From the IMG/VR virus record IMGVR_UViG_3300047560_000938, positions 1-35,140 of that record: a DNA stretch of 35,140 nucleotides. One strand, given 5' to 3'. A program made the translations under genes and the position numbers. This document shows positions 2,753-18,324 of this stretch, piece after piece. Each line of letters begins with the position of its first letter. Positions within the stretch are counted from its first letter, which is position 1. Origin of the DNA: a virus. Under the pieces are notes generated by a model, which was not told where the DNA came from, did no database searches, and saw only the letters and a list, made by a program, of their open reading frames with translations.

Positions 2753-2774
2753 AGGACCGTTGGGTCCTTTTTTT
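2751..2774 (+). terminator. rho-independent terminator
   Basis: AAAGGACC (2751-2758), loop GTTG, GGTCCTTT (2763-2770) and a T tract to 2774. It ends the operon of genes 4-2752 and separates it from the strand-alternating island. Confidence 0.85.
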
Positions 2775-2793
2775 ACGACTAAAATTTCTCACA

Positions 2794-2800
2794 ATAAATA
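2794..2800 (+). promoter_or_regulatory. T4-late-like promoter motif (AATAAATAC)
   Basis: ATAAATA at 2794-2800 followed by C, 16 nt before the ATG at 2817. The expected transcript start (about 2806) would leave an 11-nt leader with an AGG ribosome-binding site. Confidence 0.5.
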
Positions 2801-2816
2801 CTTTTTTAGGTACAGA

Positions 2817-3425
2817 ATGTTCTCCCCGTATAAACTTACTTCAATTGAAAGTAATTCACATTACATATCATCAAATCACGATCTAGCAAACCGAATCGCT
2901 GAGTTTTTTACAAAACCAGAAATACAATTTCTTTGGGCAATTAACACCACTCGTCAGCGAGTAACTAAAGCATTACAAAACACTTGCATGGTTGCGCTTA
3001 GAGAACCAGTAGCTAATGCTGCATTGGTTAAAACAACACAAGACTGGAACCAGGTTACAACCATTCGAGACACAAATATCCTAAATTCTTTTCCTATATT
3101 CAAGGAAATGCGAAGCTGGCTAGAGCAAGCGTTGTTAGAAACCGGAGCATCAAAGGTAGAGTTTGGTCGTATATTCTTTAGTAAGCACTACGCTAACTCA
3201 GGGATCGATCTGCACACCGACTCTGGTGCATACTTTGATTACTATGATAGGTTTCATTTTGTTATCGATCAGGAAGATACTAAGAACATATTTCATATTC
3301 GAGATGAAGATGTATTATTAGAACAGGGAAAATTGTATTGGGTTAATAATCACGTACCTCATTGGTTGAAAAATGATTCTTCTAAGGATCGTATTAACTT
3401 AATTTTTGATGCAAGGCTAACATGA
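2817..3425 (+). CDS. 2OG-Fe(II) / Asp-Asn hydroxylase-like oxygenase
   Basis: 202-aa protein with the jelly-roll dioxygenase pattern: HTD (His133, Asp135) for iron, an RFHFVI strand (Arg145), distal His182 in NNHVPHWLKN, and Arg192, which would hold 2-oxoglutarate. The WVNNHVPHWLKN stretch resembles aspartyl/asparaginyl beta-hydroxylase-type phage oxygenases. I chose the ATG at 2817 rather than an upstream in-frame codon at 2760, because the latter lies inside the terminator and before the promoter motif. It overlaps the TauD-like gene by 4 nt, so the two form a unit. Substrate unknown. Confidence 0.7.
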   Translation: MFSPYKLTSIESNSHYISSNHDLANRIAEFFTKPEIQFLWAINTTRQRVTKALQNTCMVALREPVANAALVKTTQDWNQVTTIRDTNILNSFPIFKEMRSWLEQALLETGASKVEFGRIFFSKHYANSGIDLHTDSGAYFDYYDRFHFVIDQEDTKNIFHIRDEDVLLEQGKLYWVNNHVPHWLKNDSSKDRINLIFDARLT

Positions 3426-4306
3426 AACATAATAACATACACAATAAATGGGGCACAACTGTAGAGTTTGATAATCCTTTAGACTTTTTTAAAACTAATC
3501 CCGACGAATGGCGTAAGTTATTGTACGAACGTAACCTTATTGTTTTCAAGAACATGAATTTTACTAAGGCAGATTATGTTAAGTTTCTAATGAACTTCGG
3601 AAAGCCCTGGTCAAGTACTGATTACAAATACAGCAACGAAGCTACTGAACTGGTACCTATAAAAAATAACATTTTTACAGTTAGCCCTATTAGTAATAAG
3701 ATCAGCAAAAGATTAGGCAGAGGCGAAATGGCCTGGCATTCTGACATTCCTAATCGTTCTTTTAAACCGTTTCCTATTCGTTCGTTGTGGATGGTTAACA
3801 ATCCAGATCCTAATTCTGGCCTAACCACCTGGATGAACATCGAAGAAGGGATTAATAGCCTACCATCTGATTTAAAATCTCAAATACCTAACATTAAGAT
3901 TCAACAACAAAGCTGGTATAAAGAGAATACTGAAGTAGACCATTACGATTTTATCAAAATAAATCCTTACACAAACAGGAAATCTTTGAGATTAAATTAT
4001 TTTTGCGATCCGGAAAAGAAGATAACAGACGCCTGGATCAAAAGTGTTACAGTTAACGGTGAAAGAAAAGAATGCAAGCCAGTGCTAGGACCGTATTTAA
4101 AGTTCTTTGAATCTCAGCCCGACTTACTGTATACACACAAATGGGGCTTGTACGATATAGTCATTTATGATAATTGGCCGTTTGTTCACAACAGAACTAA
4201 ACTAGAAATTGCAGAAGACCAGGAACGTAAGTTCTTCAGGGCCAACGTTGATCATCTCAATGATAATGAATGGGTTGAAAATAAAGCTATTTTAAATTCG
4301 CTATAA
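3422..4306 (+). CDS. TauD/TfdA-family 2OG-Fe(II) dioxygenase
   Basis: 294-aa protein with full TauD-type layout: His106-x-Asp108 in AWHSDIP, a Thr-Thr pair (135-136) at the usual 2-oxoglutarate position, distal His256 in FVHNRT, and Arg273 in KFFRANVD. The early segment LIVFKNMNFT matches the family N-terminus. Such enzymes hydroxylate or cleave small molecules (taurine, carnitine-like compounds, alkyl acids); the substrate cannot be told. It starts in the ATGA overlap with the previous oxygenase and its 3' end overlaps the convergent gene 4287-4835 by 20 nt with no terminator. Confidence 0.85.
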   Translation: MKHNNIHNKWGTTVEFDNPLDFFKTNPDEWRKLLYERNLIVFKNMNFTKADYVKFLMNFGKPWSSTDYKYSNEATELVPIKNNIFTVSPISNKISKRLGRGEMAWHSDIPNRSFKPFPIRSLWMVNNPDPNSGLTTWMNIEEGINSLPSDLKSQIPNIKIQQQSWYKENTEVDHYDFIKINPYTNRKSLRLNYFCDPEKKITDAWIKSVTVNGERKECKPVLGPYLKFFESQPDLLYTHKWGLYDIVIYDNWPFVHNRTKLEIAEDQERKFFRANVDHLNDNEWVENKAILNSL

Positions 4307-4862: not shown

Positions 4863-5444
4863 GTGAAAAATATACTAATCATTGATATGTGCAAGGACAG
4901 GTCCCAAGATCATTTGTGGACCAACGAAATTGGTAACATACAGAATAGCAACGATCTTCTTAAAGAAAATTATACATCGATAAGTTTTGATAAATTTAAA
5001 TCGTTTACTATGCTAGTATCTGACAATAATGTTGTAGCATTTAGCGGATTACAGTTTTCTCCTGATCGTTGGAGCAACAATACAGCTCGTGTTCTTTCTA
5101 GATTTTACATATCGCCGCAGTATAGACACGGGGCTAATCTACTTACTGCTGATTTGTACACCAAGTATATGCTACCGATTCAGCTCGATGCCGCAAGACA
5201 ATTAGGTGTGTCGTCTGTGTTTATGTCTAGAGAACACGGATTACAGTCTTTTAACAAGTATATTTCTTACATAAACGAAACATTACCTGATACAAATTTT
5301 ATAATGTTAAATGGTAAGTATGATGTTTGCGGCATAGAAAATCCCGTTCCGGATAGTTGTAAGCAATTTGTTGCCTTGAAACTACTAACCGAAAACGGGA
5401 AGCGTGACTGGAATAATAAAATGTTATTCCGAAGATTTAGTTGA
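4863..5444 (+). CDS. possible GNAT-like protein
   Basis: 193-aa protein. A strand-turn-strand NNVVAFSGLQF followed by VLSRFYISPQYRHG resembles the central beta4-beta5 and acetyl-CoA loop region of GNAT acetyltransferases, but the loop is not canonical, so this is tentative. It probably starts at GTG 4863 because the N-terminal residues form a hydrophobic beta strand (NILIID); ATG 4887 is the alternative. It is divergent from the oxygenase at 4835 and overlaps the desaturase end by 21 nt. Confidence 0.5.
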   Translation: MKNILIIDMCKDRSQDHLWTNEIGNIQNSNDLLKENYTSISFDKFKSFTMLVSDNNVVAFSGLQFSPDRWSNNTARVLSRFYISPQYRHGANLLTADLYTKYMLPIQLDAARQLGVSSVFMSREHGLQSFNKYISYINETLPDTNFIMLNGKYDVCGIENPVPDSCKQFVALKLLTENGKRDWNNKMLFRRFS

Positions 5445-6212
5445 ACCCATCTTTAATAACGGAATAAAGATCTTACAAGGATCCCATTCCCACGATTTAA
5501 TTCCAAAATCGAACCTTGCAGGAAATTGGTGATGATTGTTATGCCATCCCTGACCCCAACCTAGATATCCTAATGGAAGAAAATTAGAACTATTATCCTT
5601 TGTGTCGAAGTTTCTATAACCTAGCTTTGGTGAATGTCCTAATACATTAACAAGGTTATCAGTTAGAATACTGATCATAGCAGCAATACAGTATCCATAA
5701 ATTAAAGCCTTCCATCCAAATACAATCAGGAAAGCCAACACAAATCCCCAAACTAGTTTATGATAATGCTTGTGAGCAAACATATGGGCTTTGTTTCTCA
5801 TCAACTTAACTGCATATTTGTGATTAATAGTTTGTGCGTTAACAAAGAATGTCCAACCGAGAAACGCATATAATATTCCTTTGGTAGGAGTATGAGGATC
5901 TTTTTCGGTGTCGCTATGCGGATGGTGATATCCTATATGCGTTGCTACCCACGTTAAACTACTGCTCTGGCAGGCCAGAGTACCACAGGCTAAAATAATG
6001 TTGTCTAACCAGGGTTTTAATTCGTATGTGCGGTGGCTGTAGATCCTGTGGAACCCTACAGCAATTCCTAGCCCGCTCAGCAATATCCAAAATACAAAAG
6101 TTAATGCTAGCCAAGCATATTCAGCATTAGCTATCATGTTGAACACGCCAAACAGACCTAGTGAAATCATTGGAGCGACAACCAAGGCAAAGTATTTGTA
6201 ATTTAATTTCAT
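5424..6212 (-). CDS. membrane fatty-acid desaturase (acyl-CoA/ACP delta-9 type)
   Basis: 262-aa integral membrane di-iron desaturase. All three histidine boxes are present: HRIYSH (55-60), HIGYHH (92-97) and GWHNNHH (His224, 227, 228), plus the conserved NxxGHxP region (NVLGHSP, about 189-194). Hydrophobic segments at about 8-28, 32-54 and 155-190 fit the family's membrane hairpins. Members introduce a cis double bond into saturated fatty acyl chains using O2 and an electron donor. It is the last gene of the four-gene minus operon starting with the acyl carrier protein; its ATG overlaps the GNAT stop by 4 nt. It looks intact and functional. Confidence 0.9.
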   Translation of the reverse strand: MKLNYKYFALVVAPMISLGLFGVFNMIANAEYAWLALTFVFWILLSGLGIAVGFHRIYSHRTYELKPWLDNIILACGTLACQSSSLTWVATHIGYHHPHSDTEKDPHTPTKGILYAFLGWTFFVNAQTINHKYAVKLMRNKAHMFAHKHYHKLVWGFVLAFLIVFGWKALIYGYCIAAMISILTDNLVNVLGHSPKLGYRNFDTKDNSSNFLPLGYLGWGQGWHNNHHQFPARFDFGIKSWEWDPCKIFIPLLKMGSTKSSE

Positions 6213-6811
6213 GTCTTTCCTGCAATCAAAATGTTTTCTCTATACTTTTGTTTTAAAAATGTACATCTAACTAACGAATCTACAGGTAATAAAATTCTGC
6301 CATACAATACCATCCAAGGCATTGTGTAAAGAACTCTGTGTTTAGCTGGGACTAGATATTCATCGAACGAGTCGTAACGTTCATTGTTCTTTTCGCTAAA
6401 TGCTAGTCGTCTATATACCCTGGCGTATTTAGCGTTCCACATAGAGTAGAATTTTAATCTACCATTTTTCTCGTTATAATCTATGACCTCATCTAAGATA
6501 GCAGGTATGACTTTCTTTCCGGCAGCATCTTTAGTTAAAACGTGTGTCCAATACCATTCGGCATTGTCAGATGATTCGTAGAATCCAATAAACCCTATTA
6601 CTTCTCCCTGGTCATTAAATGCCCCGAATGCGTGATAGGAGTTTAGACCCGAGAGATACGTGTTACAAAAGTTTACATAATAGGTGTTTTCAAAGTCGTA
6701 GGAACTGCCGATGAACGCATTGTCTTCGTGGGATACGCCCATCCATTTTTTAACACCAAACAAGGGTTTGATTGCTTCTTTATGCTCGCTGGTTAATTGT
6801 TCTACTCTCAT
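6209..6811 (-). CDS. GNAT-fold N-acyltransferase-like protein
   Basis: 200-aa protein. The segment HAFGAFNDQGEVIGFIGFYE followed by EWYWTHVLTKDAAGK and a helix (VIPAILDEVIDYNEKNG) is the usual GNAT arrangement: beta2-beta4, the CoA-binding turn, then alpha3. The acyl donor could be acetyl-CoA or an acyl-ACP; the ACP encoded two genes upstream in the same operon makes the latter attractive, as in GNAT-fold N-acyl amino acid synthases of the FeeM type. It has 4-nt ATGA overlaps with both neighbours. Confidence 0.65.
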   Translation of the reverse strand: MRVEQLTSEHKEAIKPLFGVKKWMGVSHEDNAFIGSSYDFENTYYVNFCNTYLSGLNSYHAFGAFNDQGEVIGFIGFYESSDNAEWYWTHVLTKDAAGKKVIPAILDEVIDYNEKNGRLKFYSMWNAKYARVYRRLAFSEKNNERYDSFDEYLVPAKHRVLYTMPWMVLYGRILLPVDSLVRCTFLKQKYRENILIAGKT

Positions 6812-7725
6812 AGTTTGCTTCTTAACTGTTTTAGTGCATCGTCGATTATGATACCATCAATAGTGGACTCTGTTCTCTTGACAAAGCCTCTCCAAATTTC
6901 GTGATAGCTTTCAAAGTTGAATGCTCTTAGTCTTTCAAACCCGTGTGTTTTTAACTTACGTCTAGTATCTGGATACAGTCCCTGAAGGATTCTATTCTTA
7001 GAACTAACAGACGACAACTTGTATTCAATCTTATTGTTGACTAAGTCTTGTATCGTTGGATGTTCTAGGTAATACAATACCATTTCCGGAGTGTAACTGA
7101 ACCACTCGTTAACTAACGGAAGGTTGTAGAGTTTGCTAAACCTCATAGCACTAGCATCTTCTAACTCACGGAAGGTATAATACCATTCGGGATTTTTTTT
7201 AATCTTCTTAGAAATGAGAAGTTCCCCTCCCATTACCGCCGGCGCACCTAACTTTAATATATTATGGTATACTGTTAGGTATGTAACTTGCGGACATTGA
7301 ATTGTGGCGCCGAATTCTTTTGCCTGTCCAGACATGTGAAAATCTATAACATCAAAGTTTAGAACTTCTAAGTCTAAATCAAGTTCAACGGCAATCTTCT
7401 GAGCTTCTAAAACATCGTAATCGTTATAATTGCCATCGAATTTAATAATGGCGCATTTAGGCTTTACACCAATTTCTAAAAAATTTCTAACAACAATCTC
7501 GCTATCAGTACCACCGGACAAGAATACCACTAGGTCTTTACCGAATTCTTTGTGTACTGAATCGGCTGTACGCTTTAACTCTTCACGCCAGCTACTGGTT
7601 CTATAAATGTCTGGATCGACAGCACCCATTGTAACTTTGTATGGTTCCCAGGGCTGTTCTCGATATCCAAATTCTCTACCACCTATTGAATATTGTAGAT
7701 GATTATTCAGCGTGTAATTTGTCAA
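6808..7725 (-). CDS. PP-loop ATPase (asparagine-synthetase-like, no glutaminase domain)
   Basis: 305-aa protein with the ATP pyrophosphatase loop Ser70-Gly-Gly-Thr-Asp-Ser75 after the beta strand DLVVFL. Such enzymes adenylate a substrate (carboxylate, urea or amide oxygen) with release of pyrophosphate, then a nucleophile attacks. The N-terminal glutamine amidotransferase domain of AsnB is missing, so nitrogen would have to come from another amine donor. It sits between the ACP gene and the GNAT gene in one operon with 4-nt overlaps. Inference: it may form an amide with or on the ACP-linked product. Confidence 0.75.
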   Translation of the reverse strand: MTNYTLNNHLQYSIGGREFGYREQPWEPYKVTMGAVDPDIYRTSSWREELKRTADSVHKEFGKDLVVFLSGGTDSEIVVRNFLEIGVKPKCAIIKFDGNYNDYDVLEAQKIAVELDLDLEVLNFDVIDFHMSGQAKEFGATIQCPQVTYLTVYHNILKLGAPAVMGGELLISKKIKKNPEWYYTFRELEDASAMRFSKLYNLPLVNEWFSYTPEMVLYYLEHPTIQDLVNNKIEYKLSSVSSKNRILQGLYPDTRRKLKTHGFERLRAFNFESYHEIWRGFVKRTESTIDGIIIDDALKQLRSKL

Positions 7726-7946
7726 GGCAGTAACTTCAATAAATCTTCAACGGTAACTAGTTCATAGTCGACTGTTGGTACTTCTACTTTAATGTCATCT
7801 TCATACTTCATTTGAAGTTCGACTAAATCCAGAGAGTCTATGTCTAGATCATCTATTAGAGTGGCAGGGGTTATGTCAGACGGTTCCTTTCCAAACTCAG
7901 TTATTAGAGTTTGTTTGAGCCAATTTAGCTTGTCTTCTATATTCAT
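7722..7946 (-). CDS. acyl carrier protein
   Basis: 74-aa acidic helical protein of typical ACP length. The phosphopantetheine attachment site is Asp37-Ser38-Leu39-Asp40 in DIDSLDLVEL, matching the DSL motif, followed by helix II. It needs a phosphopantetheinyl transferase for activation; none is seen in this window, so the host enzyme is probably used. It is the first gene of the minus operon ACP / PP-loop / GNAT / desaturase. A GAGG ribosome-binding site precedes the ATG. The motif TATAAACA on this strand (7969-7962) may be its promoter. Confidence 0.9.
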   Translation of the reverse strand: MNIEDKLNWLKQTLITEFGKEPSDITPATLIDDLDIDSLDLVELQMKYEDDIKVEVPTVDYELVTVEDLLKLLP

Positions 7947-7961
7947 TTTGTGCCTCGTGCG

Positions 7962-7973
7962 TGTTTATAAATA
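7962..7973. promoter_or_regulatory. overlapping divergent late-like promoter motifs
   Basis: TATAAATA reads on the plus strand at 7966-7973 (towards the gene at 8011) and the near match TATAAACA reads on the minus strand at 7969-7962 (towards the ACP gene). The expected minus-strand start leaves a leader of about 10 nt containing GAGG. Confidence 0.5.
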
Positions 7974-8010
7974 TAATTATCAGACTAGATAACTTTTCTC
8001 GGTAATATTG

Positions 8011-8733
8011 ATGGAACCAATTGACATTTTATACACACCCCTAGACATTCCTCCTGTCCCAGATATTGATGTTGGAGCAGTTGAACAATGGATGAAAGAC
8101 ATTTATCCGCAGTCCATCTTAAACGAAGTCCCTGGATCAAAAAGAACGCAGGCAACATTCGGAGATCAATATCCCTGGGATTTAGCATTTGTTAAATTTG
8201 GACAAGTTGGGTGGCGCGATGGGTTTGAATTTCGATTCCCAGAATTAGCAAGGTACATGAGCGAAGCATACGGATTAGATCCAGAGGATCTAAATTCAAT
8301 TACATTGTTACCTATGCGTCCAAATGTTACTGGACTAGGATTCTGGCATGCAGATAACGACGAATCGGGATTAAGATTTTATCTTAGAAACGATGCAGGT
8401 GACGAAAATCCATTGTTGTTAAGACAAACTGTTTTACCTCATACATCTAGAACTGAAGAAATGAAAGCATTTATTTCCAAGGATCTAAATTTTAAAAATC
8501 ACATATTCAGAGATGAAGTTTTAATAGGAAAGTTGCCCACCCCAAGATGCGGCTTCTACGTAAACAATGTCAGGGCCATTCATAGTCCATTTATCACAAA
8601 GTACTCTCCTAGAATTGCTTGCTTCTTGCAGCCCAATGCTGCCGGAATGGAACGTGTAAAACAAAAAACTAGACAGCTAATTCTAGACTCTGCTGAAAAA
8701 TACAAGGAATATGCTTTACTATGGAAACCTTAA
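8011..8733 (+). CDS. putative 2OG-Fe(II) oxygenase-like protein
   Basis: 240-aa protein with a likely iron facial triad: HAD (His113, Asp115) in GFWHADND, His191 in VRAIHSPF, and Arg201 ten residues later. The GFYVNNVRAIHSP segment resembles the NN(V)xxxH strand of the other oxygenases here, but overall similarity is low. It starts at ATG 8011; an in-frame TTG lies directly before it. No clear ribosome-binding site. Its 3' end overlaps the next oxygenase gene by 13 nt. Substrate unknown. Confidence 0.58.
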   Translation: MEPIDILYTPLDIPPVPDIDVGAVEQWMKDIYPQSILNEVPGSKRTQATFGDQYPWDLAFVKFGQVGWRDGFEFRFPELARYMSEAYGLDPEDLNSITLLPMRPNVTGLGFWHADNDESGLRFYLRNDAGDENPLLLRQTVLPHTSRTEEMKAFISKDLNFKNHIFRDEVLIGKLPTPRCGFYVNNVRAIHSPFITKYSPRIACFLQPNAAGMERVKQKTRQLILDSAEKYKEYALLWKP

Positions 8734-9308
8734 CACCTCATTTATATACAACCTATGAATGGAGTGATACGTTTCGAAAACTTCAGGAATGGGGTTCACA
8801 TCTTGTAAACGAAAACAAGGCTTTAGAAGTATCAAAACTAACGCGAGAGCGACACAACATTGTTAATCGTGTTTTAGGACATGAATTACCTCAATGGATT
8901 AAAGATTTGTTTCAGGTTAGAATTAGTCACGTTCAGTTATTTTCAGCAGAACCAGGAGCTGTTGGTTCTATTCATAAAGATGGATCGGACAGGTTATGTG
9001 CTTTCAACGTGCCAATAGCTAACACCGATCAGGGAATAATGGAATGGTTGGATGGTCCTGTAGAAGGACGCTTATTAGAATTAGAACACACATCTATTCG
9101 TTTGCTTAAAGACAGAAGTGAAGCAACATTATTATCAAGCACAGCAAGAATATTACTAGAAAACCCAACATTGGTTAACACAAACGAATGGCATCGAGTA
9201 AACAACCTAGCTAATACCAAATGGCGTCACGTGTTAAGCGTGAGATTCCTAGACAATCCGGATTACCTTTCAGTAAAATCTATATTAGATCAGGCACTAA
9301 CTAAGTGA
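8721..9308 (+). CDS. 2OG-Fe(II) oxygenase-like protein
   Basis: 195-aa protein with HKD (His85, Asp87) in GSIHKDGSD, the strand CAFNVPI, distal His158 in NEWHRVNN and Arg169 in KWRHVLSVRF. Clearly of the same subfamily as 4287-4835 and 9290-9829. Translation is probably coupled to the upstream oxygenase through a 13-nt overlap. It converges on 9290-9829 with a 19-nt overlap. Confidence 0.7.
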   Translation: METLTPHLYTTYEWSDTFRKLQEWGSHLVNENKALEVSKLTRERHNIVNRVLGHELPQWIKDLFQVRISHVQLFSAEPGAVGSIHKDGSDRLCAFNVPIANTDQGIMEWLDGPVEGRLLELEHTSIRLLKDRSEATLLSSTARILLENPTLVNTNEWHRVNNLANTKWRHVLSVRFLDNPDYLSVKSILDQALTK

Positions 9309-9829
9309 TACGGATCTTTAACAAACCTAAAACTTATAGATATTCTAGGATTTAGTGTTGGGTTATGGACTGCATGTGGAACTTTGGTATTGATAATAGT
9401 GGGCTTTTCTAAATCAATTCTTGCAATTTCTTCTAATTCTGCCTGTTCAAAATTGTCCCATTCTACACCGTTAGGCAACGTCTTTCTAATGACTTCTCCG
9501 CTTACAACTTTGTAAAATCCTGTATAAGTATTTTTGGTATTTTTAATACTAAAGTTTAATGCAAGATCGTTTACTTGTGTATCTGTGTGCGTTCCTCGTA
9601 GATCAGCACCGGGCGGCTGTATTATAAGAGCGCAAACCCTAGGCATTAATCCAGCATTCAACATCCATTCAAATGTTTTAGGACAAGCATTCATCATTTC
9701 TGGTAAATTTACCAGATTAAATGCTTCTGTATAATTAGGAATCTGCGATAGGGCATAACTCCTAACTTCATTATGAATAGCATCAAGCTCTGGGATATCT
9801 ATCACCTTATACACAAAATTATTGGTCAT
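9290..9829 (-). CDS. 2OG-Fe(II) oxygenase-like protein
   Basis: 179-aa protein with HTD (His81, Asp83) in GTHTDTQ, LALNFSI, distal His152 in KVPHAVHN and Arg162 before SISFRF. Third member of the subfamily that includes 4287-4835 and 8721-9308. TTAAATA on this strand (9840-9834) ends 4 nt before the ATG, with no room for a ribosome-binding site if it is the promoter. It is divergent from the tail-fibre gene. Confidence 0.7.
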   Translation of the reverse strand: MTNNFVYKVIDIPELDAIHNEVRSYALSQIPNYTEAFNLVNLPEMMNACPKTFEWMLNAGLMPRVCALIIQPPGADLRGTHTDTQVNDLALNFSIKNTKNTYTGFYKVVSGEVIRKTLPNGVEWDNFEQAELEEIARIDLEKPTIINTKVPHAVHNPTLNPRISISFRFVKDPYHLVSA

Positions 9830-9833
9830 ATTG

Positions 9834-9840
9834 TATTTAA
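9834..9840 (-). promoter_or_regulatory. late-like promoter motif adjacent to start codon
   Basis: TTAAATAC on the minus strand; the ATG at 9829 begins 4 nt after the A of TTAAATA. Confidence 0.42.
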
Positions 9841-9886
9841 CTGACCAGTTAACTATTTTTAAGGATTTAGATATATTGGCACCAGG

Positions 9887-9893
9887 ATAAATA
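9887..9893 (+). promoter_or_regulatory. late-like promoter motif of tail-fibre gene
   Basis: GATAAATAC (ATAAATA at 9887-9893). The predicted leader to the ATG at 9925 is about 26 nt and contains a GGAG ribosome-binding site, unlike several neighbouring genes. Confidence 0.55.
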
Positions 9894-9924
9894 CTACATT
9901 AATTAGAAACCTTGGAGTTTTACT

Positions 9925-10881
9925 ATGCCCTTACAGATTCGCAGAGGCAATACCGCTGAAATCAACTCTATCACGCCATTAGTGGGCGAGATTATTTACA
10001 ATACACAAACCGGAAGCCTCCACATTGGTAACGGTACAGATGCAGGTGGTGTAGTTGCCACGTCATATTCTAACGAAGAAGCTAAAGATGCTGCTGCTGA
10101 GTCTATTGCAGATGGTACGCATACTAACATATCGTTTACCTACAACCCAACAACTAGAGCCCTAAGTGCAGCGTTACCTGCAACAATTGTAGCTGATGTT
10201 AAAGGATCCTTATACGACAGCTTGGATGTTTTGTTGTTAGACCATACTACAAACATGTACTACGGAAACGTTGATGCTACTTCAGGTGTGAGCCAATTTA
10301 GCTCTATTAATATCCTTAGCAACGTTTACAGTAATACTACTAACTTGTTCTCTGTAACACAGGCACACGAAACTGTCGATGCGAGAAACGTTGCATTTTC
10401 TAGAGCAAGAGGAACGATCCAAACCCCAACAAAAGTTTCCAACGGAGACGAATTATCCGAATTAACTTTTGTAGGATACGCCGACAGTCAATATTTAATC
10501 GGTGGTAGGATAACTTGTACTGTTGACGATGCCGCTGTTAGTAACACTAGCATGAAGTCTAAAATTGACTTTGCAACTAACAACGGAGCAGGTACATCTA
10601 TAGTTAGAGTAACTATTGATTCTACAGGTTTGTTAAAAGCACTTTATGGTATTACCAACAACACTATCACTATCGATAACAATAAAATTTCAACTATTGT
10701 TTCTAACGCAGATATTGAATTAGATCCAAACGGTACCGGTACTGTGGATTTTGTTGTTGCTGAACAAACAACTGTTGGTGCAGCAGGCGGAGCAAGTGCT
10801 CTTCCAGCAACACCTACAAAATACTTTAATATTAAAGTAAACGGTGTAAGCTACGTTGTTCCTGCATACGCAGTATCTTAA
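9925..10881 (+). CDS. tail fibre / receptor-binding protein with Mtd_N-like head
   Basis: 318-aa structural protein. The first 40 residues (LQIRRGNTAEIN, then GEIIYNTQTGSLHIGNGTDAGG) match the N-terminal repeat of major-tropism-determinant and hyaluronidase-like tail proteins. The middle is Ser/Thr/Asn-rich beta structure with a RISTIVSNADIELDPNGTG-like region near residues 255-275, typical of trimeric phage fibres. It has a GGAG ribosome-binding site, its own late-like motif and a terminator after the stop. It is the only obvious structural gene inside the metabolic island. Confidence 0.8.
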   Translation: MPLQIRRGNTAEINSITPLVGEIIYNTQTGSLHIGNGTDAGGVVATSYSNEEAKDAAAESIADGTHTNISFTYNPTTRALSAALPATIVADVKGSLYDSLDVLLLDHTTNMYYGNVDATSGVSQFSSINILSNVYSNTTNLFSVTQAHETVDARNVAFSRARGTIQTPTKVSNGDELSELTFVGYADSQYLIGGRITCTVDDAAVSNTSMKSKIDFATNNGAGTSIVRVTIDSTGLLKALYGITNNTITIDNNKISTIVSNADIELDPNGTGTVDFVVAEQTTVGAAGGASALPATPTKYFNIKVNGVSYVVPAYAVS

Positions 10882-10894
10882 TAGGAACAGATAT

Positions 10895-10924
10895 AAAAAT
10901 AGGACCTCTGGGTCCTATTTTTTT
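10895..10924 (+). terminator. rho-independent terminator, probably bidirectional
   Basis: AGGACC (10901-10906), loop TCTG, GGTCCT (10911-10916), flanked by A-rich and T-rich arms (AAAAAT / ATTTTTTT). The 3' arm contains the stop codon of the convergent gene 10915-11412. Confidence 0.85.
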
Positions 10925-11412
10925 GAGTATTCTTTATACCAGGCTACAACATCGTGATAATTTGTTTGCTTGGGCATTATCAGTGTAAACAAAATTCGGT
11001 CTCGTTTATCGAGATTTATAACAGTATGACGCTCCTGTGAATTAAAAATATACCAGGTTTCGGGTTTATACTTTAATTCAACAAAGGGCTCTACATATTT
11101 GTTATCTCTTTCTGGATGAATAAACAAGGTATGAGAATTATATTCTTCTAGAACCATGTTTAAGGAACATCCAATATTGGCATCTTTGTGCCAATGATAA
11201 ACGTAATTAGATGGAACTTTATATAATTTTAAATGCCCGCCAAACTGTGTTGCTATTTCTTTAATGAACGGATCAAACGACAAACTTTCAAAAAAGTTAT
11301 CAGCAACAGTCATGTACGGAATCCATTGCCAGCTAGCATTAGAAATAGACTGTTTGACCGATTTGATATTTGTGTAAGGCTCGTCTATCTGATAAAAGTA
11401 ATTACTAGTCAT
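10915..11412 (-). CDS. 2OG-Fe(II) / Asp-Asn hydroxylase-like oxygenase
   Basis: 165-aa protein with HKD (His75, Asp77) in YHWHKDAN, a LNMVLEEYNSHTLFI strand pair, His129 in NSQERHTVIN and Arg137/Arg139 before ILFTLIM. The PETWYIFNSQERHTVINLD stretch is the standard C-terminal metal-binding strand of this group. Its ATG overlaps the upstream GNAT stop, so the two minus-strand genes form a unit. Related in pattern to 2817-3425 and 18517-19305. Confidence 0.72.
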   Translation of the reverse strand: MTSNYFYQIDEPYTNIKSVKQSISNASWQWIPYMTVADNFFESLSFDPFIKEIATQFGGHLKLYKVPSNYVYHWHKDANIGCSLNMVLEEYNSHTLFIHPERDNKYVEPFVELKYKPETWYIFNSQERHTVINLDKRDRILFTLIMPKQTNYHDVVAWYKEYSKK

Positions 11413-11848
11413 CTAATCTTCGTTCCATAATAACCATAACTCCTTTGTATCCTACTGATTTTCCGATTTGAAACATTTTTTGATTGTTAACATTCATCCA
11501 GGTAACAACACGATTGCGTCCTAAATCTTTAGTTATAGAGGATAAGAAATTATGCAGTTCTTTGTAAATTCCTTGCTGGCGAAATTCTGTATCTACATAT
11601 GCCAACACTACCCAAACCCCACTACTGTCTTTAGATCGTTCTAGGTCGTAGAATAATGCCCCAACAACCTCGTTGTTTATTTTGGCCCATATTACTCCGT
11701 GTACATCAGGCAATGAATTTTTTATAGACCTACCGTGGTTTGCAGAATTGAGTTCTGTTAATTTCTTAACAAAATATTCGTTTTCTTCAGTACAAGGCTC
11801 GTGTGTCAATACTACTTCAATTCCTTTTTGAGTTTTAAATGTGATCAT
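11405..11848 (-). CDS. GNAT-family N-acetyltransferase
   Basis: 147-aa protein. GALFYDLERSKDSSGVWVVLAYVDTEFRQQGIYKELHNFL is a clear GNAT core: the beta4 strand, then the Q/RxxGx CoA loop as Arg-Gln-Gln-Gly-Ile, then helix alpha3; the C-terminal NNQKMFQIGKSVGYKG is the usual last motif. Substrate unknown. I placed the start at ATG 11848; the frame is open to 11920, but that part runs across the motif ATAAATA (11862-11856, minus strand) and the divergent gene's start. It overlaps the downstream oxygenase gene. Confidence 0.78.
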   Translation of the reverse strand: MITFKTQKGIEVVLTHEPCTEENEYFVKKLTELNSANHGRSIKNSLPDVHGVIWAKINNEVVGALFYDLERSKDSSGVWVVLAYVDTEFRQQGIYKELHNFLSSITKDLGRNRVVTWMNVNNQKMFQIGKSVGYKGVMVIMERRLDD

Positions 11849-11855
11849 GGCCTGA

Positions 11856-11887
11856 TATTTATTGTGTAAAAATGCCAGCAATAAATA
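11856..11887. promoter_or_regulatory. divergent late-like promoter pair
   Basis: ATAAATA on the minus strand (11862-11856), 7 nt before ATG 11848, and ATAAATA on the plus strand (11881-11887), exactly 5 nt before ATG 11893. Confidence 0.5.
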
Positions 11888-11892
11888 ATAGT

Positions 11893-12786
11893 ATGAACTA
11901 CACAGACCTATTCGGTTCACGTTATCCGATTATTGCAGCACCAATGAATAAGGTGTCTGATTTAAAATTAGCAATAGCCTGTCATAACGCAGGAATCTTA
12001 CCTAGCTTGTCACTATACACGTACTTTGTAATAGACAGACTGCGGTTAGATTTGTTTGATGCTGCACTAAAAGAATTTAAAAATCAAACAGGATCAAACA
12101 AGATTCTAGTAAGTGTATTAACTTCTGATATGTTTAACAAGAATGTTCAAAAAATTCTTTTAGATAATCAGATAGAACTATTAGAAATTATAGACGATAA
12201 AACAATTGTTAACGGCGAAGTCTGGGAGTTCTTTAAAAACGAAATACAGTCGTTACAGGAATCCGGCATTAAAATTTTTCTTAAGGCGTTGACATCTAGA
12301 AACGCTGACCTGTTAATAGATGGTGTAATTTTAAAAAGCAATGCAGGTGCCGGGCGGGGCATAGATCATTTAAGCATCGACGACGAATTAAAAAAGGTAC
12401 AGGAAAAATATGTAGGATTGCCTGTTGTTATGAGTGGTGGTATTTCTACTTCAGCAGATGTTATGAAATACTTGGACCTTGGGTGCATTGCTGTTGCTGT
12501 TGGAACTTTAATTGCAGCAGCAGAAGAAAGCCCTATTAGCAACGAAAGCAAACAAAAAATGATAGAGTCTACATATGCTGATGTTGTACGATTTGGAAAA
12601 GCAAATCAAAATGCGCTAATCTTTAAACCTATAGCAGAAGACGATCACAACAATACAGGTTCATTGGTACAAGGTATAAAAAGTCCAGACACAGGTATTT
12701 TATTTGCCGGGCGGGCTCTTAATAATATTAAAGAAATTCGTCCAGTAAAAGATATAATAAACGATTTAATAAAGGATTTAAAATAA
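11893..12786 (+). CDS. nitronate monooxygenase / 2-nitropropane dioxygenase-like flavoprotein
   Basis: 297-aa TIM-barrel protein. Family landmarks: PIIAAPMNKVSD at the N-terminus (FMN phosphate side), SNAGAGRGID in the middle, VVMSGGISTSADV and AVAVGTLIAAAEES (phosphate-binding loops). These enzymes bind FMN and oxidise alkyl nitronates or act as related reductases. At 297 aa it is slightly shorter than typical members (about 320-350). I chose the ATG at 11893 because the family N-terminus starts there and it lies 5 nt after ATAAATA. Its stop shares an A with the Rieske start, so the two are co-translated. Confidence 0.78.
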   Translation: MNYTDLFGSRYPIIAAPMNKVSDLKLAIACHNAGILPSLSLYTYFVIDRLRLDLFDAALKEFKNQTGSNKILVSVLTSDMFNKNVQKILLDNQIELLEIIDDKTIVNGEVWEFFKNEIQSLQESGIKIFLKALTSRNADLLIDGVILKSNAGAGRGIDHLSIDDELKKVQEKYVGLPVVMSGGISTSADVMKYLDLGCIAVAVGTLIAAAEESPISNESKQKMIESTYADVVRFGKANQNALIFKPIAEDDHNNTGSLVQGIKSPDTGILFAGRALNNIKEIRPVKDIINDLIKDLK

Positions 12787-13607
12787 TGTTTGTAGGTCAT
12801 GTAAGTGATATTCGAGAGAACGAATATGTACCATTGAAGCAGTTTAATAACAAAAAAGTTCTTGCGAATTCTGACTCGCTACAAATCATTTCTAACGTTT
12901 GTCCGCACCAGAAGAGTTTACTAAGTGTTGAGAAAGGAACTGGCGCTAGGGTATGTCCCTACCACGGTTGGAGTTTTGATATAAACGGAAACCCACTAGG
13001 TTCGGGACTAACAGCTTGTAAAAATACCAAGGGTCTAACCAATGAACCGGTGTATGAATGGAATAATTTGTTATTCACAAAACCTATCTCAGTTCCGGAA
13101 GCAAACTTTATTAATACTAAAAATATGCGTTTAGTGGAAACCAGAGTTGATCATGTTAAAGCATCTGCCAATAACATAATGGATTTATTTCTTGACGTAG
13201 ATCATATTGAACTAGTTCACGCAGGTGTGTATGACGAGCTTGGCATGCCAGACATTCGTGAAGTTGATTGGCATTATTATGATTGGGGTAGTTTACAACT
13301 AGTCCCTGGTCCTACTGGTTACGGCGCAGCCTGGCTTGCTGTGTATCCAAATACTATGATAGAATGGCAAGAAGGGGCTTTGTTCATTACTGTTGCAAAC
13401 GACTTAGGAAATGGTTCTAGTGACGTTGTTGTTTACAAATATCGAGACCCAGCGTTCGTATATGAATTGTGGGAAACCAATAGTAGGATATGGGAAACTG
13501 CCTGGGGGCAAGATAAAGCTCAGGCAGAACTGTTAACTGAATTCAATAACGACTATCTAGAACCAGCAAAACAACATTTTAGAAATTACTTGTTCTCTTC
13601 TGTATAA
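12786..13607 (+). CDS. Rieske non-heme iron oxygenase (alpha-subunit type)
   Basis: 273-aa protein. Rieske [2Fe-2S] ligands: Cys39-Pro-His41 (VCPHQK) and Cys57-Pro-Tyr-His60 (VCPYHGWSF). Catalytic mononuclear iron site: Asp139-His140...His145 in DVDHIELVH, preceded by the NNIMD bridging segment. Both centres are present, so this is an oxygenase rather than a lone ferredoxin, though at 273 aa it is shorter than most (about 330-450). It needs a reductase; the FMN protein immediately upstream is its translational partner but is not a known Rieske reductase. Possible reactions include hydroxylation or demethylation. Its 3' end overlaps the convergent gene by 22 nt. Confidence 0.85.
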   Translation: MFVGHVSDIRENEYVPLKQFNNKKVLANSDSLQIISNVCPHQKSLLSVEKGTGARVCPYHGWSFDINGNPLGSGLTACKNTKGLTNEPVYEWNNLLFTKPISVPEANFINTKNMRLVETRVDHVKASANNIMDLFLDVDHIELVHAGVYDELGMPDIREVDWHYYDWGSLQLVPGPTGYGAAWLAVYPNTMIEWQEGALFITVANDLGNGSSDVVVYKYRDPAFVYELWETNSRIWETAWGQDKAQAELLTEFNNDYLEPAKQHFRNYLFSSV

Positions 13608-14500
13608 GAGATATTTTCATAGAATCTGCGTGTTTCGCCTGTATAAGATTTTAAAAACTTAATAAAATCTCTGAAAGGGGTCTTCATCGCATGTTTATTA
13701 TAATCTAGCGGTGCTTTCAGAAACGGCACTTTTTCAAATCCTGCATACTTAGGAAAATAGATTAGTTCGTCTCTCCAATACTTACCGTATATTAAAGGCT
13801 TGATATAATAATCCCACCTATCCACAGTTTGCAATTGTACACCTTCTTTACTTAGACCGTTGAATGCAAAGTAAGGCCAGGAGTACATACAAGAGTGCAA
13901 GATTTCTTCGTCTAGTATGCTCGCAAGGAATTCGCTGGTGTCTCCGTAAAAATGAAACTTACCTTTGCGAGGCAATAATTCAAATGCTCGTTGTCTTGCA
14001 ATTTCGGGAGTGTTGTATCCCATAAACCAATATGAGGCTCGTTCTTTGATAGAGATCACAACATACGGGTCGTGAGTTATTGAAACAAAATCGTAATCGT
14101 CTGGGAGTAAACTTAAAAACTTCTTTTGAATTATAGAATTTACCTGAATGCCTGTAGCTGCCGCTTCGGCTTCTAGATCTTCTTGATAATCATACGGATC
14201 AAAATCGACAATGTGAGTTTTGATACCATACTTCTTGTCGATGATTTTTAAATTGTTATATTCGTTGTCGTTGTATCCGGGTAGATACAAAAACGCTGTT
14301 TCAACAGGGATGTCTTGCGTAACAAAACTATGTAGGACACTTTGACTATCAATGCCGGAACTTAAACTAATCATTATCTTATCACTGGAGTTTGCAATGT
14401 CTACAGCTCGTTTATCTGATTCTTGTCGCATATTGCCGACAGGGCGTGTACAAGTTTTGTAATCAATATACCACTTGCCATTTTCAAATCCGTGAATCAT
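13586..14500 (-). CDS. PP-loop ATPase (asparagine-synthetase-like)
   Basis: 304-aa protein with a slightly altered PP-loop Ser47-Ser-Gly-Ile-Asp-Ser52 after KIMISL; the canonical motif is SGGxDS, so Gly is replaced by Ser at one position. The length and the following YLPGYNDNEYNNLKIIDKKYG region resemble 6808-7725 (KFDGNYNDYDVLEAQKIA), so the two are probably paralogues. No glutaminase domain. A GGA element lies 5' of the ATG and TTAAATA on this strand (14533-14527) may be its promoter. It is divergent from the next PP-loop gene. Confidence 0.7.
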   Translation of the reverse strand: MIHGFENGKWYIDYKTCTRPVGNMRQESDKRAVDIANSSDKIMISLSSGIDSQSVLHSFVTQDIPVETAFLYLPGYNDNEYNNLKIIDKKYGIKTHIVDFDPYDYQEDLEAEAAATGIQVNSIIQKKFLSLLPDDYDFVSITHDPYVVISIKERASYWFMGYNTPEIARQRAFELLPRKGKFHFYGDTSEFLASILDEEILHSCMYSWPYFAFNGLSKEGVQLQTVDRWDYYIKPLIYGKYWRDELIYFPKYAGFEKVPFLKAPLDYNKHAMKTPFRDFIKFLKSYTGETRRFYENISYTEENK

Positions 14501-14526
14501 TCCGTATCCTTATAATTAATGACACG

Positions 14527-14545
14527 TATTTAACGCCTATAAATA
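14527..14545. promoter_or_regulatory. divergent late-like promoter pair
   Basis: TTAAATAC on the minus strand (TTAAATA at 14533-14527) and a perfect TATAAATAC on the plus strand (TATAAATA at 14538-14545), 4 nt apart and pointing away from each other. Expected leaders are about 21 nt (minus) and 11 nt (plus). Confidence 0.55.
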
Positions 14546-14561
14546 CGGTACGGAAATAATT

Positions 14562-15722
14562 ATGTTAGATAAAAAATTAGGCTACTATATTTGTAACGGT
14601 CAACACTTTGATTCCAAAATCAAAGCATTTATGTATTCACTGGAAGTAAAACAACCAGTTGCTTGGAACTTTAACAATCGTGCATTCAAAGAAAATAATT
14701 GGGCCTTAGAACCTGTAGAAACATTGGATCAATTGTATGATGCTCGTGCTAGAGAACTTCGAGACAAGTATGATTATATTATGTTGAGCTACAGTGGTGG
14801 CGCAGATAGTCATAATATCCTAATGGCGTTTATTAGACAAAATTTACATATTGACGAAATCGTTGTTAACACAATGACCAAAGCTACAGAAAAATTTACT
14901 GTACTAGATCCCAATAACAAAGAGAATAAAAATGCTGCTGCTGAATACGCACTGCAAACTTTACCTCGTCTAAAAGAAGTTGAACATCAAATTCCTAAAA
15001 CTAAAATCACTGTGTTAGATTTAACAGATCATTTATTCAATATGCTCGAAGATGTAGGCGATGCTAGTTGGATTATGGAAAAACGAGAACAGGTAAACAT
15101 TGCAGGAGCCACACGATTTAATTACACACACTTTGATACTATTCGTAAGCAGTTTGATAAAGATAAAAGAATTGCGTTAGTATTAGGTTTAGAAAAACCA
15201 AGGACATACATCGACAATGGAAACCTTTATATTGTATTTCACGATCGTGCTGCTAACATGGTTACTGTGGCAGAACATATTAGAGATTACACAAACAGCG
15301 CAGTCGAGTACTTCTACTGGAGTCCTGACGCCCTTAGGATTTTAACCAAACAAGCACACGTTATTAAACATTGGTTAGAAGCGTTTCCGGAAAATCAAAC
15401 ATTGTGGGCAAAAGAAAACTTCACCCCAGAAAGTTATAGATTTATACACGAGCGTATACTTCGAGGGCTGTTATACACAACCTGGGATAATAATTGGTAT
15501 CAGGCTGACAAGGCAGTTAAAGATTGGTATAGTGAGTTTGATGCTTGGTTCTATAACGGATACGCAGATACAAAAGCCTTCCATGTTTGGCAGGAAGGCT
15601 TACAGTATTTAGAAAGTAATCTTGGCCCTTACGTAAAGAAAGCCAAGGACGGAACAGCAGACGCTCTTATTTCTCTGTCTCAGACGTATCTGGTTGGTCC
15701 GATACGGACTTACCCCAAGTAA
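14562..15722 (+). CDS. PP-loop ATPase, paralogue 1 of a pair
   Basis: 386-aa protein with the loop Ser78-Gly-Gly-Ala-Asp-Ser83 in YIMLSYSGGADSHNIL. It is a paralogue of 16163-17365: both share (Y)G(Y/C)(Y/W)..N..F.SK..A at the N-terminus, the R(A/E)xxLRDKYxY segment just before the loop, SGG(A/S)DSHNIL, an EHIR/EERVEAFYWSPE-type region and a C-terminal segment around ILRGLLYTTWD. The extra 80 or so residues after the core, compared with the 304-aa PP-loop proteins, are not recognised. It is preceded by a perfect TATAAATA. Its 3' end overlaps the DUF2061 gene by 56 nt. Confidence 0.72.
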   Translation: MLDKKLGYYICNGQHFDSKIKAFMYSLEVKQPVAWNFNNRAFKENNWALEPVETLDQLYDARARELRDKYDYIMLSYSGGADSHNILMAFIRQNLHIDEIVVNTMTKATEKFTVLDPNNKENKNAAAEYALQTLPRLKEVEHQIPKTKITVLDLTDHLFNMLEDVGDASWIMEKREQVNIAGATRFNYTHFDTIRKQFDKDKRIALVLGLEKPRTYIDNGNLYIVFHDRAANMVTVAEHIRDYTNSAVEYFYWSPDALRILTKQAHVIKHWLEAFPENQTLWAKENFTPESYRFIHERILRGLLYTTWDNNWYQADKAVKDWYSEFDAWFYNGYADTKAFHVWQEGLQYLESNLGPYVKKAKDGTADALISLSQTYLVGPIRTYPK

Positions 15723-16131
15723 CCCTATTCCAGGCACGTTCGTGTAAGTAGTAAATTGCAATGTTCATAAACGTTGCTATGGTTAGAAACGCTGCGGCAG
15801 CTTTCCAAGAGCCGGTCATTAGGTACGGGATCATAAAATTATTAAATGTAATTAAAATTCGCCAGGTAATCGACTTGCTAATTGTTCTGGGTTGGCCGTC
15901 AACAAACATATTTGTGTCGCCGGGCTTGCGATTCCACTGTGCCCAATTCCAAACTCGTTCGTGTAACCAATGCAAGCACATATTAATAACTGCTGCTACA
16001 CCTAAAATTTGAGCACCAATAATCCAAGATCCGGATACAATAAATCCGTTAATCAAGTGACTAAGTGAGAATAATACTCGAATAGTCAGTGTCTTTGCTA
16101 TGCTTCGAGATTGTGTCTCTGTATATTGCAT
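15667..16131 (-). CDS. DUF2061 membrane protein, internally duplicated
   Basis: 154-aa protein made of two copies of the DUF2061 unit: residues about 9-66 and 83-139. Each has R-S/T-I-(A/S)-K-(T/S)-(L/I)-T-(I/W)-R near the start, a hydrophobic stretch, then LHER(V/A)WN at the end (WLHERVWNWAQW, YLHERAWNRVTW). Two to four membrane segments are predicted by eye. Family function is unknown. A weak motif GATAAGTA lies upstream on this strand. It sits between the two paralogous PP-loop genes on the opposite strand, overlapping one by 56 nt. Confidence 0.82.
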   Translation of the reverse strand: MQYTETQSRSIAKTLTIRVLFSLSHLINGFIVSGSWIIGAQILGVAAVINMCLHWLHERVWNWAQWNRKPGDTNMFVDGQPRTISKSITWRILITFNNFMIPYLMTGSWKAAAAFLTIATFMNIAIYYLHERAWNRVTWGKSVSDQPDTSETEK

Positions 16132-16162
16132 ACTAATCCTTAAAGAAAATACTTATCTTAAA

Positions 16163-17365: not shown

Positions 17366-17368
17366 ATA
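17362..17368 (+). promoter_or_regulatory. late-like promoter motif of TctC gene
   Basis: TTAAATACC just after the PP-loop stop codon; the expected leader to ATG 17392 is about 18 nt with an AAGGAAAA ribosome-binding site. Confidence 0.45.
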
Positions 17369-17391
17369 CCGTTATACAATCAAGGAAAACC

Positions 17392-18324
17392 ATGACATTA
17401 ATAAAAATAATGGCAGCATTTGTTGCATCGTTCACTATTCTATCTGCAGGAGCTAACCCGTATCAAGAAATCCCTAAGAATATTACATTTTTAAATCCAT
17501 ACGGACCCGGAGGAATTGTTGATGTACAATACCAACCGTTTGAAAAATTTATGGCTAGCAAGGGAGTACAGATGCAAATCTCATACAAGCCCGGAGCTAA
17601 CAGTTCAATTGCTGCACAAGAATTTTTATCAGGTCCTAAGGACGGATCTGTTATTATGATGAACTCAACTAGCAATTCTTGGCTAGCAGAAAAAAGATTA
17701 GGCCAAAAAGTAATTGAACCAATTATATCCACTGGCGGTGTTGCTAATGTTATTATCACTCAACCTGGAAACAAATACGAAAAGTATGAAGATTTTGTTA
17801 AAGGTTTAAAGGCAGGTGATACAGATATTAAAATAGGCTGGCACGCGGTATCTAATGTTCTTATGGCTCATCAATTTTCTAACGCTGTTAATGCTTCTGT
17901 GCCGTTATTGGTCCCTTATAAAACCAGTATAGATTCTGCAAGAGATGTTGTAGGAGGGCATCTGCCGTTTGCGTTTAGTCCTATGAGTACTGTTAAACCG
18001 TTATTAGAGTCTGGAAAAGTTAAGATTGTTTTTGGATTTGCATCAAACCCTAATACATTGCCGCCAGGAACACTCGATATTAAAAAACGTATCCCTAACT
18101 GGAGGCATGGTGAAATTTTCTTTGTAGGTCTACCACCTGGTACTGATGAGAGAATTATTAAAGCCTGGACCGCAATATGGAAAGAATATCTAAGTTTAAA
18201 AGAGACAGACGAAGCATTGCAAAAAGCATTCATTGGTAAAGATATCGGAAATGCTGATCATGTCAACAGTATGATACAACACCAAGCTGATGGCTTCAAA
18301 AAATACAATATTGAAATGAAGTAA
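17392..18324 (+). CDS. TctC/Bug-family periplasmic solute-binding protein
   Basis: 310-aa protein with an N-terminal signal peptide (MTLIKIMAAFVASFTILSAG, cleavage near residue 20). It then has the tripartite-tricarboxylate-transporter receptor pattern: ITFLNPYGPGGIVDV (ligand loop), ISYKPGANSSIAAQEF, a VPYKTSIDSARDVVGGHLPFAF middle region and a VGLPPGTDERIIKAW C-terminal region. The length matches the family (about 300-330 aa). Bug receptors bind small carboxylates or amides in the periplasm and are especially numerous in betaproteobacteria. No TctA/TctB permease genes are present, so it would have to use a host permease or serve another purpose. An unusual phage cargo gene, probably host-derived. 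Confidence 0.85.
   Translation: MTLIKIMAAFVASFTILSAGANPYQEIPKNITFLNPYGPGGIVDVQYQPFEKFMASKGVQMQISYKPGANSSIAAQEFLSGPKDGSVIMMNSTSNSWLAEKRLGQKVIEPIISTGGVANVIITQPGNKYEKYEDFVKGLKAGDTDIKIGWHAVSNVLMAHQFSNAVNASVPLLVPYKTSIDSARDVVGGHLPFAFSPMSTVKPLLESGKVKIVFGFASNPNTLPPGTLDIKKRIPNWRHGEIFFVGLPPGTDERIIKAWTAIWKEYLSLKETDEALQKAFIGKDIGNADHVNSMIQHQADGFKKYNIEMK

Follow-up and report, generated by a model that had tools for sequence, protein, structure and literature searches.

About 58 non-redundant viral contigs share a set of putative biosynthetic genes that forms a conserved module, and the enzyme classes predicted for it are consistent with an acyl-transfer or amide pathway. We tentatively favor the reading that this is a horizontally mobile phage biosynthetic cassette, which during infection would make a small molecule or lipid of the acylated amide type. 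The auxiliary genes known from phages mostly encode individual enzymes that supplement host pathways. The cassette is a conserved multi-enzyme set with predicted capacities for ATP-dependent ligation, acyl transfer and O2-dependent desaturation, sometimes with a private carrier protein, and selection maintains it in many uncultivated phages. One copy lies in the window analyzed here, which comprises positions 1 to 35,140 (35,140 nucleotides) of IMG/VR record IMGVR_UViG_3300047560_000938.

Genes and proteins of the cassette

The operon occupies the minus strand of the window. Its first gene codes for an acyl carrier protein (ACP, 74 residues, 7722–7946), followed by genes for a PP-loop protein (PP, 305 residues, TTG start, 6808–7725), a GNAT-fold protein (GN2, 200 residues, 6209–6811) and a membrane di-iron fatty-acyl desaturase (DES, 262 residues, 5424–6212). 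The original prediction described these four genes as consecutive on one strand with 4-nt overlaps, and the ORF coordinates confirm overlaps of exactly this length at 7722–7725 (ACP/PP), 6808–6811 (PP/GN2) and 6209–6212 (GN2/DES). A fifth cassette gene, absent from that four-gene set, is located on the plus strand (GN1w, 193 residues, 4863–5444) and converges with DES such that the 3' ends overlap by 21 nt. Its product is a second GNAT-like protein, recognized by homology to the GN1 proteins of related phages (hhalign 92.7%, E = 4.2e-7), which in most relatives are encoded upstream of ACP or PP. A recent common origin of GN1 and GN2 by duplication is unsupported (hhalign 3%). Also on the plus strand, two genes with a 4-nt overlap code for 2-oxoglutarate oxygenases of the Asp/Arg-hydroxylase family (2760–3425; PF05118, E = 1.6e-7) and the TauD/TfdA family (3422–4306; PF02668, E = 6.6e-14), both of which are likely accessory. 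Promoter and terminator scans gave signals at chance level.

The ACP scores 35.9 bits against PF00550 (cut-off 20.8; E = 9.4e-9). The predicted phosphopantetheine site, D37-S38-L39 with Ser38 as the serine, is invariant in 20 of 20 ACPs, and dN/dS among relatives is 0.03–0.06. In one relative (L029), GN1 and ACP are read in a single frame. Since we found no phosphopantetheinyl transferase (PPTase) in nine related virus records, the predicted modification of the ACP would rely on a host PPTase. DES matches PF00487 above the cut-off (E = 7.9e-18) and the structure of stearoyl-CoA desaturase (SCD1, PDB 4ymk) with E = 2e-22. It shares the full metal-ligand set of SCD1, that is, three His boxes and the NxxxH ligands: all ten residues (nine His and one Asn) are invariant in 24 of 24 homologues, so the assignment as a three-His-box desaturase stands. 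From its sequence, we predict that DES is a stearoyl-CoA-desaturase-like membrane enzyme.

Pfam matches of PP are weak (PF02540/PF06508, E about 0.08), and PF00733 is matched by 15 of 27 family members (best 4.6e-4). The motif SGGTDSE, a PP-loop signature of the SGGxDS type, is invariant in all 27 PP proteins. By sequence, the PP-loop half is closer to NAD synthetase and also matches QueC, MnmA and TtuA. In the AlphaFold model (pLDDT 88), PP adopts the fold of a synthetase domain, its C-terminal helical half included, with asparagine synthetase (TM 0.52) and beta-lactam synthetase (TM 0.51) as the top-scoring Foldseek matches; NadE, LarE, MnmA and TtuA, among the matches listed, reach TM 0.27–0.35. 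Because TM-scores near 0.52 are moderate, the asparagine-synthetase assignment holds at the level of the fold only. With about 60 residues ahead of the PP-loop, PP has no N-terminal glutaminase (Ntn) domain. Asparagine, beta-lactam and carbapenam synthetases share the PP-loop and the predicted domain fold with PP in their C-terminal domain, whereas they carry an Ntn domain (a glutaminase or its relic) and PP, at about 305 residues, does not; unlike them, PP is encoded in an operon with GNATs and a desaturase. The class proposed originally, a PP-loop ATPase, can be refined: PP is probably best described as a stand-alone, glutaminase-free amide ligase domain of the asparagine-synthetase type.

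GN2 is only weakly identified as a GNAT-fold protein from its sequence (PF00583, E = 0.0015, under the cut-off), but the AlphaFold model (pLDDT 84) supports this, matching SpeG and other GNATs with E about 1e-8. The acyl-CoA pyrophosphate loop (R/QxxGxG/A) is RxxGxN-like in most relatives and degenerate in the window copy, and a conserved C-terminal extension contains an invariant Arg182-Cys183 pair. The original prediction drew an analogy to FeeM and LuxI, to be examined by structure comparison. Ordinary acetyl-CoA GNATs (SpeG, RimI, PAT-like) make up the best 50 Foldseek matches, FeeM, LuxI and OlsB being absent from these, and the Pfam models of these three families do not match GN2; the OlsB-type model PF13444 matches neither GN2 nor GN1. 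We therefore reject the assignment of GN2 as a FeeM- or LuxI-type enzyme. Where an ACP is present, the cassette resembles FeeM/FeeL, related N-acyl amino acid synthases and LuxI in combining a GNAT-superfamily enzyme with an adjoining dedicated ACP, and acyl transfer to an amine is likely common to them. The cassette differs from FeeM/FeeL and LuxI in that the ACP is optional and further components are present, namely a ligase, a second GNAT and a desaturase.

Distribution and inheritance

The full-context set comprised 50 non-redundant IMG/VR contigs whose flanks extend for at least 3 kb on both sides. The PP-loop gene is accompanied by GN2 in all 50 contigs, by DES in 49 and by GN1 or GN1w in 47. 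In a reciprocal search with GN2, 71 of 74 loci contained the PP-loop gene, and the remaining three belong to contigs or stretches that span only 4.4–5.5 kb. (A scan with the desaturase as bait covered the best 80 loci, and its counts were taken qualitatively.) In distant phages whose PP is recognized by profile only (27–30% identical to that of the window in L223, L241 and L251), GN1-type, PP, GN2-like and DES genes are still found together, mostly in that order. Viral records carrying the cassette reach 525 kb. For the window itself, a TctC gene hints at a host among the betaproteobacteria.

All five cassette families are under strong purifying selection (dN/dS 0.03–0.11). Pairwise distances of PP correlate with those of GN2 (0.68) and ACP (0.56), but not with those of two neighboring non-cassette families (0.00 and 0.14), which correlate with each other (0.79). 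The cassette genes are thus inherited as a block and have a common history, from which that of the phage backbone genes differs. Co-occurrence by chance in one genome, named originally as one outcome that would refute the prediction, is contradicted by the conserved synteny, the reciprocal search, the purifying selection and the shared inheritance; recurrence and selection across relatives rule it out.

The recurrence of the gene set in other phages, proposed originally as a check, was found for PP, GN2 and DES but only in part for ACP, which is present in 22 and absent from 28 of the 50 full-context loci. Phages without ACP in the cassette encode none elsewhere, an ACP can be missing from the entire phage record, and at least seven gains or losses have occurred across the family. 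These data exclude the ACP as a fixed component; it is dispensable across the family, so dependence on acyl-ACP is not general. In 17 of 50 relatives a TauD-family gene lies no more than 5 kb from the cassette, and in several it is 3' of GN2 on the same strand. An Asp/Arg-hydroxylase-family gene lies within this distance in 15 of 50, and the family is represented in 9 of 10 virus records tested.

Among 50,697 phage records, we found weak desaturase matches only. Those in "Acinetobacter phage MD-2021a" are flanked by bacterial genes, probably represent bacterial DNA within a phage record, and were discarded. The cassette is essentially absent from annotated phage records, and we found no paper describing it in the open-access literature. 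Distant relatives occur in Bdellovibrionales chromosomes. The cassette also defines an unannotated ligase family common to phages and this order. One chromosomal locus (L039) combines PP, two desaturases, a GN2-like protein and an ACP. The GN2-like call (36 bits with the GN2 profile) is tentative, because this profile matches none of 60 relatives of that genome. At three other loci (L087, L094 and L041), a FeeM-looking protein of ~205 residues is encoded beside PP or desaturase genes. It has no informative Pfam or PDB match and none to GN1 or GN2, and was set aside.

A putative acyl-amide pathway and its alternatives

The product and chemistry that we infer can be outlined in four steps. The ligase would adenylate a carboxylate with ATP and form an amide from free ammonia or an amine, the nitrogen sources suggested by the missing glutaminase domain. 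One or both GNATs would then move an acyl group onto an amine. The donor could be the cassette ACP, charged by the PPTase and the fatty-acid synthase of the host or, in phages that lack this ACP, acyl-ACP or acyl-CoA of the host. The desaturase may introduce a double bond, or perform another O2-dependent oxidation, on the acyl chain, and hydroxylation of the product by the 2-oxoglutarate oxygenases encoded nearby may follow. The cassette would likely serve to change the membrane, surface or chemistry of the infected cell. A more specific version is somewhat less likely: a viral biosynthetic gene cluster dedicated to a bespoke lipid amide or secondary metabolite, which diverse tailed phages would exchange as a block, related to the Bdellovibrionales clusters, and combining a new family of glutaminase-free asparagine-synthetase-type ligases with GNATs and a desaturase. 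If a defined product is made, these phages would count as producers of specialized metabolites or lipids, and heterologous expression could reveal the compound.

Characterized assemblies contain parts of this combination. The JamABC terminal-alkyne cassette pairs a membrane desaturase with a free-standing ACP, to which the phage cassette adds GNATs and the ligase. JamA is an acyl-ACP synthetase of the AMP-binding family; such an enzyme (PF00501) does not occur near the phage cassette and is encoded elsewhere in two of nine virus records. In SB-203208 biosynthesis, SbzB, SbzG/K and SbzC/SbzI likewise unite an ATP-dependent activating enzyme, free-standing ACPs and two GNATs that form acyl bonds, SbzC and SbzI taking their donors from ACPs beside adenylate-forming enzymes (PMC6331615). 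SbzB and SbzL are adenylate-forming enzymes according to this source, whereas the phages use a PP-loop ligase; the Sbz assembly is non-viral and described without a desaturase, in contrast to the viral cassette.

A somewhat unlikely alternative is that DES alters the unsaturation of host or phage-induced membrane lipids while polar head groups are assembled or decorated by the GNATs and the ligase, which would yield a modified membrane lipid and not a soluble signal. The SCD-like character of DES is consistent with this role. Enzymes of the Asp/Arg-hydroxylase and di-iron classes modify ornithine lipids. Formation of these lipids requires an N-acyltransferase and 3-hydroxyacyl-ACP (PMC11631085). 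However, neither GNAT has an OlsB-type match, and a PlsC/OlsA-type O-acyltransferase (PF01553) was found in none of ten, possibly incomplete, virus records, with control genomes positive. A classical lipid route completed by the phage's own PPTase, acyl-ACP synthetase or PlsC can be discarded, as in the nine virus records covered (ten for PlsC) these enzymes were not found or lie outside the cassette. Furthermore, a desaturase alone would need neither a ligase nor two GNATs, yet these nearly always accompany DES. Lipid desaturases of the same superfamily, also encoded by aquatic phages, have been reported from cyanophages (Roitman 2018, as cited in PMC11480375); DES differs from these enzymes, as from stearoyl-CoA desaturase, by its tie to a ligase–GNAT cassette. 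The isolated Pelagibacter phage Mosig (MT647606) groups desaturase, TauD, Asp/Arg-hydroxylase and N-acetyltransferase genes, but unlike the cassette this island has no annotated PP-loop ligase or ACP, and its desaturase is 29% identical to the query over 71% of the query only. Phage desaturase homologues can act simply on membrane lipids, which counts against the amide pathway.

It is unlikely that the ligase acts on an amino-acid-like core, closing or amidating it in the manner of beta-lactam and carbapenam synthetases, with GNATs and 2-oxoglutarate oxygenases as tailoring enzymes and the acyl/desaturase part providing a side chain of a soluble specialized metabolite. Beta-lactam synthetase is among the top-scoring folds for PP, and ligase genes adjoin 2-oxoglutarate oxygenases and GNATs repeatedly in both phages and Bdellovibrionales. 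Yet the fold match is common to asparagine synthetase, the beta-lactam synthetase catalytic residues could not be located in PP, and membrane desaturases are unusual in such pathways.

Modification of tRNA, DNA or a virion protein (lysidine-, thio- or acyl-type) by PP and the GNATs, with an acyl group supplied by the ACP or desaturase, appears more improbable still. PP-loop enzymes commonly modify tRNA, and the sequence matches of the PP-loop half to NAD synthetase, QueC, MnmA and TtuA point in this direction, but the whole-domain fold is closest to asparagine and beta-lactam synthetases instead of tRNA-modifying enzymes, and a membrane desaturase would be an odd partner. The near-conserved Cys144 of PP is replaced in L030 and many distant members, which argues against thiolation. 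Finally, unrelated oxygenase, radical-SAM and transferase genes abound in the region, but that the cassette itself is a transient island of auxiliary genes with no common pathway is scarcely credible, since the association is near-invariant, gene order is kept and the genes are under selection, so that this reading is already contradicted for the PP–GN2–DES–GN1 core.

Recurrence and inheritance of the gene set

Inspection of the window ORFs confirmed the predicted series of four consecutive minus-strand genes with exact 4-nt overlaps, coding for an ACP (7722–7946), a PP-loop protein (PP, 6808–7725), a GNAT protein (GN2, 6209–6811) and a desaturase (5424–6212). The ACP and the desaturase have clear Pfam assignments; those of the PP-loop and GNAT proteins are weak by sequence and backed by predicted structure models. 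The original prediction overlooked a second GNAT-like protein (GN1w, 4863–5444, plus strand), a homologue of the GN1 protein that most relatives encode upstream of ACP or PP.

About 58 non-redundant viral contigs carry a relative of PP. With PP as bait, 50 loci offered at least 3 kb on either side of this gene, and they contain GN2 (50/50), the desaturase (49/50), a GN1-type gene (47/50) and ACP (22/50). Because PP served as bait in this count, the reverse search from GN2 carries weight: it recovered a PP-loop gene in 71 of 74 loci, and the other three are contigs or stretches of just 4.4–5.5 kb. Distant phage versions (L223, L241 and L251), with PP proteins 27–30% identical and detected by profile alone, retain GN1-type, PP, GN2-like and desaturase genes side by side.

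All five families show dN/dS of 0.03–0.11 in close pairs. Pairwise distances of PP correlate with those of GN2 (0.68), ACP (0.56), the desaturase (0.46) and, less tightly, GN1 (0.32), but hardly with two adjacent non-cassette families (0.00 and 0.14) that correlate with each other (0.79); these values count pairs of related sequences and do not constitute a formal test. The simplest reading of these sequence comparisons is that the cassette moves between phage genomes as a block. Recurrence, reciprocal search, selection and distance correlations all contradict chance co-occurrence in one genome; the association is not accidental.

Predicted enzymes and possible chemistry

The most fitting description of PP is a synthetase domain of the asparagine-synthetase type that lacks a glutaminase domain. 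Its structure model gave the highest TM-scores with asparagine and β-lactam synthetases, the SGGTDSE motif is present in 27 of 27 PP-loop proteins, and 15 of these 27 match PF00733. Because the first half of PP also resembles NAD synthetase by sequence, this evidence is fold-level, not family-level. GN2 is predicted to adopt an ordinary GNAT fold and has an invariant Arg-Cys near the C terminus. The desaturase matches SCD1, with nine His and an Asn ligand invariant. At one locus (L029) GN1 and ACP form a single ORF, which would suit a physical partnership of the two proteins, although a single frameshift at the usual overlap could also produce it.

Cassette conservation, folds and conserved motifs are established from sequences and models; as for mechanism, we favor, judging from enzyme class, a pathway in which PP would ligate an amide, the GNATs would transfer an acyl group and the desaturase would desaturate the acyl chain. 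ATP-dependent activation, a free ACP and GNAT transfer have a documented precedent in SbzB, SbzG, SbzC and SbzI (PMC6331615). Oxygenases of the TauD type (17/50 loci) and the Asp/Arg-hydroxylase type (15/50) lie within 5 kb of the cassette, in several loci immediately after GN2.

The ACP, with its invariant DSL site, is an optional component, gained or lost at least seven times on the PP tree. Three ACP-containing virus records encode exactly one ACP each, six records of 125–525 kb with an ACP-less cassette encode none anywhere, and no PPTase gene turned up in nine records; any of these records may be incomplete. Chemistry based on acyl-ACP, if that is what the cassette performs, would therefore have to rely on the host for ACP modification and for acyl groups, with host ACP or CoA standing in for the missing carrier in ACP-less versions.

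Relatives outside the phage set

A scan of genome collections found PP relatives in Bdellovibrionales only (four loci), and a profile search of this order gave matches, some weak, in 28 of 141 genomes. On one chromosome, locus L039 combines PP with two desaturases and ACP, plus a protein weakly resembling GN2; its cluster (6534–20491) also includes a 344-aa protein of no named family, SDRs, split transketolase-like genes, two B12-radical-SAM proteins and an Asp/Arg-hydroxylase-type oxygenase. In Bdellovibrionales, L088, L089 and L090 carry tandem PP pairs, adjacent and on the same strand, with one copy divergent.

A search of 50,697 phage records with PP, GN2, GN1 and two distant PP versions gave no match. 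In BFVD there are relatives, of which the nearest bears only the name "uncharacterized". Among isolated phages, Pelagibacter phage Mosig has the most similar island, with genes for a desaturase, a TauD protein, an Asp/Arg-hydroxylase and an N-acetyltransferase; neither PP nor ACP is annotated in it.

Other genes in the window and its relatives

The window, from a 35-kb virus record in IMG/VR, is probably a fragment of a T4-like myovirus since it contains a T4 RnlA-like RNA ligase/tail-fibre-attachment gene. A TctC/Bug-type tripartite tricarboxylate receptor (17392–18324; PF03401, E = 4e-7) hints at a betaproteobacterial host, because this family is expanded in Burkholderiales; a TctC-like family also occurs close to several cassette relatives. 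A UvdE-type UV endonuclease lies at 28844–29953 (PF03851, E = 4e-38).

Adjoining the cassette, 8008–9829 encodes three successive proteins (two plus, one minus), one weakly matching 2OG-Fe dioxygenase, whose families recur next to the cassette in some relatives. A second enzyme group (11405–14500), which L042 also has as a set, comprises a GNAT (11405–11920, minus), a FabK/nitronate-monooxygenase-like protein (11872–12786, plus; best NCBIfam model FabK, 62 bits, far under its cutoff), a Rieske protein (12786–13607, plus) and a PP-loop paralogue (13586–14500, minus).

Downstream of the desaturase, distant cassette versions encode a second, larger PP-loop-like family (about 357–372 aa, weak Asn_synthase match; L241 6390–7508, L223 7905–8978). 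Two phage contigs (L259 and L264) have an ACP-first layout, in which no PP gene was found: ACP, a 276–468-aa protein, several proteins of about 215 aa, one of about 390 aa and a desaturase. CAKLQH020000002.1 (L320), titled Acinetobacter phage MD-2021a, is probably a bacterial chromosome filed as phage, because btuB, baeSR and trpC-like genes flank its desaturase.
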